Assembly: GCF_000238775.2 (NCBI RefSeq)
Contig: NZ_AFEJ02000001.1
Span: 1,736,001 to 1,800,000, forward strand
Source: Acaryochloris sp. CCMEE 5410
GTDB lineage: Bacteria; Cyanobacteriota; Cyanobacteriia; Thermosynechococcales; Thermosynechococcaceae
Direction: 5' to 3'
Length of the DNA: 64,000 bases
Of the stretch, positions 5,759 through 8,255 are shown one piece after another; positions within the stretch are counted from its first letter, which is position 1, and every line of letters starts with the position of its first letter. Both the position numbers and the translations under genes were made by a program. The notes beneath the pieces are model-generated. The model did not search any database and was not told the origin of the DNA. It saw nothing but the letters and a program-made list of their open reading frames with translations.

Positions 5759-6147
5759 TATATGATTCGCTTGCGTTGAGCTACTCTCAGTGTGGAGGAC
5801 AAGCGCTGTTGCCGCAATCGGATTTTTTCAGGTATTTCTGGAAGAAATAACGCGCAATATATGTTTTGAAATCACTCTGGAGAAGATGTGATTGATATTC
5901 CAGGTGTGTGGCCAAAAATCAGAATTGACAGCCGATGTATTAAGCTATCCCTTTATCTATGGACTTTCCAGCATGAACGCATTGTCTGGGGTTAAGCACT
6001 TTTTTGTGTCATATTACGCCAATGTTGGTTGGTGCTTGAGTGTAATGTTCTCCTCAGTGCAGTACAAAACTTAAAGCCATCACCCTCTGTCGTCATCATG
6101 AGCCGCGTTGAGAAGTTGTTTTGGCAGCCCCGTTAAACCCTGCATCC
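5759..6147. other. intergenic stretch without a supported gene
   Basis: This 389-base region lies between the start of the HTH-ATPase gene (minus strand) and the repeat before the DUF559 gene. It presumably holds the promoter of the ATPase operon. A TTTTTTCAGG at 5823-5832 echoes the copies upstream of 786. A 60-codon plus-strand frame at 5892-6074 has no family match that I can see and no convincing ribosome binding site, so I do not call it a gene. Confidence 0.5.
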
Positions 6148-6180
6148 GCCCCCTAAATCCCCCATTCTGGGGGACTTTGA
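6148..6180 (+). repeat. left arm of a perfect 33-bp inverted repeat
   Basis: The arm reads CCCCCTAAATCCCCC, then ATTCT, then GGGGGACTTTGA, with one extra G in front. It is the exact reverse complement of 6616-6648. Each arm is itself close to a palindrome (CCCCC-ATTCT-GGGGG, with AAA and TTT flanks). A weaker match continues outward (TGCAT at 6141-6145 against ATGCA at 6651-6655). Repeats of this CCCCCTAAATCCCCC type are widespread in cyanobacterial genomes. Confidence 0.85.
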
Positions 6181-6225
6181 AATTTATGATTATCCTAAAT
6201 GGGAGATAGGGTTAGAGGTAACACG

Positions 6226-6651
6226 ATGCGAGAGAAACAGACACAACACCACCGCATTCGCGGCACGACCCCAGCAGTCGTTGCCGCCGCGCGACGACTC
6301 AGACTCAATCTGACGACCGCAGAACAAAAGCTGTGGAAAGCACTGCAAAAACGTCAACTCAGCGGCCTAAAATTCCGCTGTCAACACGCCATTGGTTCGT
6401 TTATTGTTGATTTTTACTGTCCCCAATGCCGATTAGTGATTGAGCTAGACGGCGACATCCACAATCAGCAGGTGGAATACGATAAAGCCCGTACCGAGCA
6501 GCTCAACCAGCTTGGTTTCCGAGTGATTCGATTCCATAACTCAGAAGTTATGCACCACCTAGATCATGTACTTCAGCAAATCCGGCAGGCGAGTGAGCAA
6601 AGCATTACTCGACAGTCAAAGTCCCCCAGAATGGGGGATTTAGGGGGCTAA
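6226..6651 (+). CDS. DUF559 endonuclease-like protein
   Basis: The 141-residue product has the DUF559 fold of the Vsr/restriction-like nuclease superfamily. Seen in order are RRLRLNLTTAEQKLWKALQ, then KFRCQHAIGSFIVDFYC, then VIELDGDIHNQ and RVIRFHNSEV. The acidic D in FIVDFY, the ELDGD pair and the following His/Gln are the likely metal-binding centre. I chose ATG 6226 over the in-frame ATG 6199 because AGAGG lies seven bases upstream of it. The gene fills the space between the two 33-bp inverted repeats, and the right arm encodes its last residues (SKSPRMGDLGG) and abuts the stop codon. Single DUF559 genes beside such repeats suggest a small selfish or repeat-associated nuclease. The target is unknown. 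Confidence 0.85.
   Translation: MREKQTQHHRIRGTTPAVVAAARRLRLNLTTAEQKLWKALQKRQLSGLKFRCQHAIGSFIVDFYCPQCRLVIELDGDIHNQQVEYDKARTEQLNQLGFRVIRFHNSEVMHHLDHVLQQIRQASEQSITRQSKSPRMGDLGG
6616..6648 (-). repeat. right arm of the 33-bp inverted repeat
   Basis: This is the exact reverse complement of 6148-6180 and overlaps the 3' end of the DUF559 gene. The stop codon TAA follows at 6649-6651. As RNA, the arm could form its own GC-rich hairpin (five C against five G), which may also end transcription of the nuclease gene. Confidence 0.85.
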
Positions 6652-6870
6652 TGCAGCATACTTGGGACTATTGACTAGAAAAACATTGGATCTAGTTGTG
6701 AGGGATCGTGCTCTCCCTAAAAACATACCCCTAGCTAGCTCAAAAAAGTTTTGTCTTGTACTACAAAGACTCTCTTGCTGTTTTATGGAGATTTTGAGAT
6801 CAAGGCATCAATATCTTGTAAATTTTTCAGTCTTCTGTACTTACTTTTGGCATGATGAAAGCAAATTATA
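6652..6870. other. spacer between repeat unit and ISL3 element
   Basis: There are 219 bases between the end of the DUF559 gene and the left terminal repeat of the insertion sequence. A 69-codon frame (6662-6871) has low-complexity aromatic content and no recognisable motif, and it runs up to the IS end. I see no supported gene. Confidence 0.4.
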
Positions 6871-8255
6871 GGCTCTCCGGGAATTAGCGTGGTAGCCGCT
6901 AGATATAGTGTTTAGGTCACAGCAAATGTCTGATACCCATTGAGGTCAAGAGAAATTCTTTGGAAGAGTCTTTCAATATCGAAAATACCGTAGCATCGCC
7001 TTTTTAAGACCTTGACTCGGTTATTAAATCCTTCCACAAAGCCACTGGTCCACCCCTCCAGGAAATAGTTGGTCATCTCGTCCATCCAATTATTGATAGT
7101 AGTCAGAAAACTATCAAATTCCTTGATATCACTTTTGAGTACTTGTTTACACCAGGCTCGGATGGCACATTTAGCTCCGTGCTTGGTGTACCTGCCCTCA
7201 AATATCTGCGTGAATTTCTCTCGGAGATCATATGCCTGTTTCAGTTGTGGAGAATAAGCAAACAATCGCTCAAGGAGTTGTTGCTCTGACTCTTTCAGAT
7301 TCTCTGGTCGTTTTCTAAAAGGCCACATCGCGCCTTTGATGCTGTCATACTCTTGCTTAGAGAGCTCTCGTCGTAGACGTTTGACCTCACGTTTACGAAC
7401 CGTATCGGCACAATTACGATAGGCTTTGGTCACATGAAAGCGGTCAATGACAATTTTGGCTTGCGGCAATTGTTCTCGGACTGCACTGACAAATCCTTGG
7501 TACATGTCCGTACAGACGCGCTCAATGGTTTGGCGTAAATTGATGGGAATTGATTTAAGAAAATTGGCCACTGTCTGCTGTTTACGGTCGGCTAGAACTG
7601 CCAATATGTCCACCCCATCTGTCGTAGGAATCGTGACCAAAACCACAAAATCACGATGGCCTCGTTTGAGAGAAATCTCATCCATCCCAATAACTTTGAG
7701 GTCTGCATATTCGCTCCAGTCAACTTGAGCGGCAATCCAACGATCAATGATTCCACTGACGATATCCTCACTAACGCCTAGTTTTCTGGCAACATCTGAG
7801 ACCGTTGAATTGATCAAAATTCGCAGAAGCCAATGCTCATATGCTTTTGTATTGGAACTGCGAGGTTCGTGCCATTCTAAATGTTGAGTTGTTGTGGGAT
7901 GGTCATCGCAATACCTGCATCGATAACGCTTGGGCCGAATTTCTAAGTAAACGGGGACTTCAAATAATGGCAGGTGACGAATCCGAAAAGGCTGATCATG
8001 ACAATGGAGGTCAGTAATCTCACGTCCGCATTGATGACAGGTTGTTCCTTGAAGCGTACTCTCAATTTTGATGAGCCAATCCCCTCTCTCAGTCTTCGTT
8101 AGCTCTAGAACTCGAACATCAGGAAGGTTGAGCGGGATGCGAATTGAGTTATCCATGACGCCATTGCTCTGAAGTACTACCTCAGATCATTCCATAGGGA
8201 TGAAAAAGGAAACACACTAAATGTAGGACTGCTACACGCTAATTCCCAGAGAGCC
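6871..8255 (-). mobile_element. ISL3-family insertion sequence, apparently complete
   Basis: The element is 1385 bp. Its ends form an imperfect inverted repeat of about 25 bp: GGCTCTCCGGGAATTAGCGT at 6871-6890 against GGCTCTCTGGGAATTAGCGT read inward from 8255. The ends then share TGGTAGC and TGTAGC. A single full-length transposase lies inside. The eight-base target duplication typical of ISL3 is not evident: the left flank ends AAATTATA and the right begins AAAAATTT. It may have mutated or come from a rearrangement. Confidence 0.88.
6912..8156 (-). CDS. ISL3 family transposase
   Basis: The 414-residue protein has an N-terminal zinc-binding region (CHQCGREI at about 40 and CRYCDDH at about 79-85), a helix-turn-helix stretch (SDVARKLGVSEDIV) and the DDE catalytic core. 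The likely catalytic acids are in KVIGMDEISLKRGH, ERVCTDMYQGF and the late EGFNNRVKVLKRRCYG. The frame is intact and ends LNGYQTFAVT, so the copy could be active. It sits 41 bases inside the left terminal repeat and 99 bases inside the right one, leaving no room for accessory genes. Confidence 0.92.
   Translation of the reverse strand: MDNSIRIPLNLPDVRVLELTKTERGDWLIKIESTLQGTTCHQCGREITDLHCHDQPFRIRHLPLFEVPVYLEIRPKRYRCRYCDDHPTTTQHLEWHEPRSSNTKAYEHWLLRILINSTVSDVARKLGVSEDIVSGIIDRWIAAQVDWSEYADLKVIGMDEISLKRGHRDFVVLVTIPTTDGVDILAVLADRKQQTVANFLKSIPINLRQTIERVCTDMYQGFVSAVREQLPQAKIVIDRFHVTKAYRNCADTVRKREVKRLRRELSKQEYDSIKGAMWPFRKRPENLKESEQQLLERLFAYSPQLKQAYDLREKFTQIFEGRYTKHGAKCAIRAWCKQVLKSDIKEFDSFLTTINNWMDEMTNYFLEGWTSGFVEGFNNRVKVLKRRCYGIFDIERLFQRISLDLNGYQTFAVT

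Follow-up and report, generated by a model that had tools for sequence, protein, structure and literature searches.

A DUF559 nuclease gene is flanked by triplex-code repeats in several bacterial phyla

Introduction

In the genome of Acaryochloris sp. CCMEE 5410, a gene for a DUF559 nuclease lies between two inverted copies of a palindromic repeat, which raises the question of whether the gene and the repeats belong together and, if so, whether the nuclease may act on the repeats and spread them. Triplex-motif repeats are common dispersed repeats of cyanobacteria and enterobacteria and are linked to genome rearrangement; to our knowledge, neither an enzyme nor an origin was known for them before. 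DUF559, in turn, is a widespread family for which we know of no assigned function. In the open-access literature, we found no paper that joins the two, each half having been described separately. Joined, each gains a testable explanation, in Escherichia coli by way of a single gene, ycjD. A preliminary description of the Acaryochloris locus took it for a unit of about 0.5 kb with one nuclease gene, whose enzyme would spread the repeats much as REP-associated enzymes do, by another chemistry. Here, we follow up this description in the window (the whole 64-kb stretch of DNA that was analysed), in the 8.09-Mb genome to which it belongs (G000, hereafter the own genome), and in genomes of several phyla.

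Results

Layout of the element

The inverted arms around the DUF559 gene are real: they measure 41 nt each, pair at 39 of 41 positions (95%), enclose 435 nt, and contain an exact 33-base match between 6148-6180 and 6616-6648 (Table 1). At up to two mismatches, CCCCCTAAATCCCCC occurs in the 64-kb window at the two arms only (0.17 occurrences expected). Each arm is made of three blocks, C5-TAAAT-C5-ATTCT-G5, that is, a hairpin followed by a mirror-image third block, and a triplex-motif scan of the whole window at a stem length of at least 6 returned the two arms and nothing else. The left arm folds as a hairpin with a DNA z-score of -2.6, as calculated with a folding tool that models hairpins and not triplexes. 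Terminator prediction made no call at either arm, which speaks against transcription terminators, and neither a GTAG nor a CGTC tag was found at the palindrome foot when both arms (6140-6180 and 6616-6656) were read. The right arm does code for the end of the nuclease (SKSPRMGDLGG), as had been described, with the stop codon (6649-6651) directly after it.

Table 1 Features of the repeated element in the window
Feature	Position	Strand	Basis
Whole repeated element (outer shell, arms and gene)	6053..6763		Extent of homology between own-genome copies; outer edges approximate
Left outer inverted repeat, AGTGCAGTACAAAACTT	6056..6072	+	82% complementary to 6746-6762; related ends in other copies
Shell flank A	6073..6139		Accompanies other copies; orientation to the gene varies
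Left arm, triplex motif C5-TAAAT-C5-ATTCT-G5 and surroundings	6140..6180	+	Inverted-repeat match; hairpin fold
DUF559 nuclease gene, from the conserved start	6226..6651	+	PF04480, E = 2.4e-38; EDxHD/Vsr-type fold; comparison of copies
Right arm, inverted copy, encoding the C-terminal residues of the nuclease	6616..6656	-	Inverted-repeat match
Shell flank B	6657..6745		Comparison of copies
Right outer inverted repeat	6746..6762	-	Complementarity to the left outer repeat; comparison of copies

The claim of a unit of about 0.5 kb with one nuclease gene stands as to the single gene but not as to the length, since homology within the own genome reaches out to about 6053-6763. The element ends in an imperfect 17-nt outer inverted repeat, so that it has the terminal inverted repeats of a MITE or insertion sequence; its single ORF is that of DUF559, and no DDE transposase was found within it. 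No target duplication was seen at the window unit. Just beyond the unit lies an ISL3-family transposase gene (6912-8156, minus strand), and the sequence beside this gene recurs elsewhere in the genome and in congeners.

The nuclease

The longest ORF (6199-6651) matches DUF559-type families only, and the start kept among copies is 6226 (ATGCGAGAG after GGTTAGAGGTAACACG) rather than 6199. Residues invariant over 47 proteins include E42, W46, Q62, D71, E82, D84 and H88, with D95 nearly invariant. Sequence and fold comparisons, the latter using a predicted model with a mean pLDDT of 78, returned 3hrl (an uncharacterised endonuclease-like protein) and 3r3p (the I-Bth0305I catalytic domain; E = 0.0024 by sequence and 2.1e-5 by fold), and then PvuRts1I and Vsr. 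The DUF559 protein is therefore predicted to have the Vsr/EDxHD homing-endonuclease fold, a Vsr-type fold with a conserved acidic/histidine core, and DUF559 had earlier been assigned to the EDxHD homing endonuclease family (PMC9403480). In 14 of the 76 loci of set A, the reading frame extends into the triplex motif, and the C-terminal residues (e.g., SPRMGDLGG or PPELGG) are thus encoded by the repeat. As a separate observation, genomes of family f23 (~2 Mb) contain many DUF559 domains within long open frames of 370-925 aa, which are possibly fusions or run-on frames; the CCCCCTAAATCCCCC motif is missing from these genomes.

Association with triplex repeats across phyla

DUF559 loci were collected by protein similarity (80 loci) and, in cyanobacteria and genomes of other phyla, with the Pfam model (60 loci), which gave 135 distinct loci, and the presence of repeats was no criterion in their selection. 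The 18 non-cyanobacterial genomes searched with the Pfam model were mostly genomes in which a first DUF559 locus had shown repeats, and their extra loci are therefore not fully blind. A motif was scored where a purine stem block was accompanied by its reverse complement and by a third block in mirror image. Such a motif lay within 300 bp of the DUF559 gene at 114 of the 135 loci and on both sides at 75, counts that are not fully independent because some of the loci are related; no motif was nearby at the other 21. At control positions in the same loci, the motif was present on either side in 138 of 3,443 cases (4%) and on both sides in none (0/3,443). The association on either side held in cyanobacteria (67/74), Bacteroidota (21/26), Nitrospirota (6/6) and Proteobacteria (4/5), with 2/6 in Chloroflexi and 14/18 in the others. 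Among other small cyanobacterial genes, the motif was found at 1 of 30 PF02604 antitoxin loci and at 0 of 15 PF13366 nuclease loci; together with the position controls, these two families rule out chance pairing of C-runs. A flank-versus-flank local alignment that makes no assumption about triplexes agrees with the association. The preliminary description had named as fatal to its reading that DUF559 genes should lack the repeats in most genomes, and the reverse was found. The DUF559 gene is flanked by triplex-code repeats in several bacterial phyla, and its recurrence in the cyanobacteria, the Bacteroidota, the Nitrospirota and the Proteobacteria suggests that a widespread class of repeats, for which no enzyme was known, has one of its own.

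Within the Cyanobacteriia, the CCCCCTAAATCCCCC motif occurs in 25 of 32 genomes with DUF559 versus 7 of 17 without (Fisher p = 0.014, descent ignored), and repeat-rich genomes with no DUF559 match exist (e.g., G045, with 50 repeats). The DUF559 gene of E. coli K-12 is ycjD, which has a TM_ECO-type repeat downstream and a degenerate one across its 3' end. As in the window unit, this degenerate repeat codes for the protein terminus; no TM_ECO-type repeat was found on the upstream side of ycjD. Across a spread sample of E. coli, records with ycjD had 14-33 query matches, most of them repeats (median 22, n = 37), compared with 2-20 in records that lack the gene (median 4.5, n = 22), a correlation that is supportive only because it follows phylogroups. 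The copy-number correlations in both E. coli and cyanobacteria are confounded by descent. It has been reported that ycjD replaces eefRABCD in phylogroups A, B1 and C (PMC12817139), and ycjD does not qualify as a clean presence/absence insertion, since in strains that lack it the eef efflux operon occupies this place. Gene-less repeat pairs also occur in E. coli. Two intergenic regions, phnL-phnK (L383, L385-L387) and gudD-barA (L382, L388-L390), were rejected as empty sites, other intergenic sequence replacing the repeat pair there; at phnL-phnK, the sequence that alternates with the triplex-repeat pair between strains is REP-like.

A triplex code in place of one repeat sequence

The arm sequences vary by genome (AAGGGGAGG, AAGGAGGGG, GGGAGAGGGG, GGGGGA and others), with 60 distinct blocks in all. 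When the third block was located by its G positions alone, it was related to the stem by mirror symmetry only on 101 hairpin sides and by direct repetition only on 7, and the third-block letters opposite A were T (65), A (51), C (8) and G (1). This is the purine-motif triplex code, in which G is placed on G-C, and T or A on A-T. The comparison without G-anchoring is weak (p = 0.02) because the third block sits on one side only of each hairpin. One repeat sequence passed on by descent is ruled out as a full account, since the mirror relation is kept even where the arms of two genomes differ in sequence. This covariation of the third block is evidence for a triplex structure rather than proof of its formation in cells, and would be natural-sequence evidence for selection on an intrastrand DNA triplex in bacteria. 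In their work on these repeats, Holder et al. observed the triplex in vitro but did not see a stable one in vivo, in E. coli (PMC4666352).

The repeats might also be terminators or insulators in repeat-rich intergenic DNA, with DUF559 as an ordinary host or defence nuclease for foreign or damaged DNA. Both the hairpins formed by the repeats and a weak likeness of the protein to restriction-type models (PADLOC mREase_II, E = 3.5e-7) would suit such a role, but the repeats stand on both sides of the gene, neither arm is called as a terminator, the mirror third block is conserved, and other small genes, PF13366 nucleases included, are without repeats. We therefore consider this explanation very improbable.

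Copies in the own genome

The strict arm pattern occurs at 18 places in the own genome. Each of the five full-length DUF559 genes, of which two contain an internal TGA, is enclosed by inverted arms, and five more arm pairs, of ~150 bp each, are gene-less, one arm having the loop ATTCT or ATCCT and its partner another loop, mostly ACCAGT or ACTAGT. Between the copies, homology passes beyond the arms into flanks A and B, up to the outer inverted repeats near 6056 and 6762, and the gene-less pairs occupy shells of different sequence. The arm-gene-arm cassette is flipped relative to flanks A and B in three copies, one in the own genome (L030) and two in Acaryochloris sp. IP29b (L042 and L043), and is not flipped in the window copy and several others. 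In a deletion derivative (C1:369305-369635; L035 1819-2146), flank A is joined to the 3' part of the nuclease gene; the left arm is gone, and the loss starts at its outer edge and stops inside the gene. In the right flank of L030 (query 2364-2477) lies a ~113-bp repeat with many copies in several Acaryochloris genomes and no relation to DUF559, probably another MITE.

Empty sites and target duplications had been proposed as a check on the unit, and one case was found, for a gene-less element: C1:3398524 (L033 ~2001-2150; ~310 bp, two triplex arms in a shell) is absent from two congeners (L321 and L322) at a clean site and is flanked by a CTTAG/TTAG duplication. For gene-bearing units, neither a clean empty site nor a target duplication was found. 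In 145 relatives, the sites of L204, L210 and L215 either have flanks that are interrupted where the unit begins or ends, or are altered in some other way, and for the own C1_3339 unit compared with G004 the flanks align only in part; the search left out the own elements C1_3717, C1_4150, C1_172 and C1_369, as well as L182. The duplication at C1:3398524 is typical of a DDE-type MITE, and therefore a transposase supplied in trans may cause some of the movement in the own genome. The unit in the own genome is surrounded by a MITE-like shell, and another enzyme may be responsible for moving this shell.

Boundaries of the unit in other genomes

In four cyanobacterial genomes (L204, L210, L215 and L182), a 601-bp unit composed of two motifs, the gene and two motifs is 94-98% identical, and its similarity generally ends only a few bases away from the outer motif edges, one flank being common to L204 and L182. 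When genome G306 is compared with L215, homology stops one base beyond the right edge of the unit. The Nitrospirota loci show the same boundary pattern at 80-89% identity, including two copies in one genome. Because homology ends at the outer arm edges in many genome pairs, arm, gene and arm behave as one unit.

These boundaries bear on the main rival explanation. In it, a DDE transposase acting in trans mobilises a MITE or insertion-sequence shell with terminal inverted repeats and a 4-5 bp target duplication; the DUF559 gene is a passenger of this shell, and the arms are merely internal hairpins. This model explains the own genome, where the outer inverted repeats, the common flanks A and B and the clean empty sites and duplication at the gene-less C1:3398524 all agree with it, but not the pattern across phyla. 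Other genomes show no shell and homology that ends at the arms, the cassette flips within the shell, and the same arms are found inside shells of different sequence. On this evidence, we regard the gene as unlikely to be mere cargo.

Alternatively, a free-standing homing endonuclease may have landed on pre-existing triplex repeats that are spread by other means, its gene inserting beside or between them. The fold match to I-Bth0305I, the genomes that have repeats without DUF559, and the occurrence of both cassette orientations are in keeping with such an insertion; a single target would, however, be split by it, whereas full arms are observed on both sides, and the moving units bring their own arms. 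This makes homing into existing repeats a rather improbable account.

Discussion

The reading that we favour, with somewhat more belief than doubt, is that triplex repeat and nuclease form a selfish mobile unit, which also leaves gene-less repeat pairs. In such a unit, the nuclease would recognise the hairpin or triplex into which the repeat can fold, most likely on DNA that is single-stranded in the course of replication, and would nick or cut at or beside the repeat; repair of the break would then copy the unit, or a gene-less arm pair, into new places. Recombination from arm to arm could account for the flipped cassettes and for the deletion with one end at an arm edge. The working would be like that of REP/RAYT (an enzyme, its own palindromes and non-autonomous derivatives), with hydrolysis of the homing-endonuclease type replacing HUH chemistry. 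In the own genome, the unit is also carried in the MITE-like shell, perhaps moved by a transposase in trans. More tentatively, DUF559 nucleases specific for intrastrand triplex DNA could, with their repeats, constitute a class of mobile element found throughout bacteria, in which a three-stranded structure code, and no sequence, marks the ends; its non-autonomous derivatives might then be the E. coli orphan PIT/TM repeats and the cyanobacterial CCCCC repeats, a generalisation that we hold to be possible rather than probable.

Comparison with known systems

The window arms share with the triplex motif repeats (TM_ECO/PIT; PMC4666352) the hairpin with a mirror third block and the G/C-rich composition. 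The TM_ECO/PIT repeats are likewise dispersed and lie between genes, are abundant in both cyanobacteria and enterobacteria, and form inverted pairs that have two loop types, and the gene-less pairs of the own genome resemble the inverted pairs of TM_ECO type A and type B in E. coli (PMC4666352). The stems differ in length (5-6 nt in the window arms versus 9 in TM_ECO), so the arms depart from the 9-nt-block consensus of TM_ECO while having the same architecture. The 2015 survey of Holder et al. searched for mobility genes and found none linked to triplex repeats (PMC4666352), whereas DUF559 is linked to them here in many phyla.

With the EDxHD homing endonucleases (I-Bth0305I, PDB 3r3p) and Vsr, the nuclease shares the predicted fold and the acidic/histidine core. 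Unlike the EDxHD homing endonucleases, it is associated with no intron or intein, and its gene has its own flanking repeats, which are common to the gene-less pairs. Prokaryotic MITEs resemble the element in their outer inverted repeats and in the 4-5 bp target duplication of its gene-less relative, but the unit encodes a nuclease and no DDE transposase, and units elsewhere end at the arms.

The anatomical parallel that was proposed, REP/RAYT with its REPINs (PMC3116915, PMC3733652), also has one enzyme gene with palindromic repeats in inverted orientation on either side, and there, as here, repeats and pairs are also dispersed without the gene. The RAYT enzyme is a Y1 HUH transposase, whereas a nuclease of predicted Vsr/EDxHD fold is found here, and REP palindromes carry a GTAG or CGTC tag, whereas the arms carry the triplex code; because enzyme and tag differ, the DUF559 unit is not a member of REP/RAYT. 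The idea of a REP-like enzyme of another chemistry fits the anatomy, with its dispersed palindromes, gene-less pairs and dedicated nuclease. The earlier picture has changed in two ways, since an intrastrand-triplex code, and not a single repeat sequence, is what is conserved, and since the unit of the own genome is nested in a MITE-like shell.
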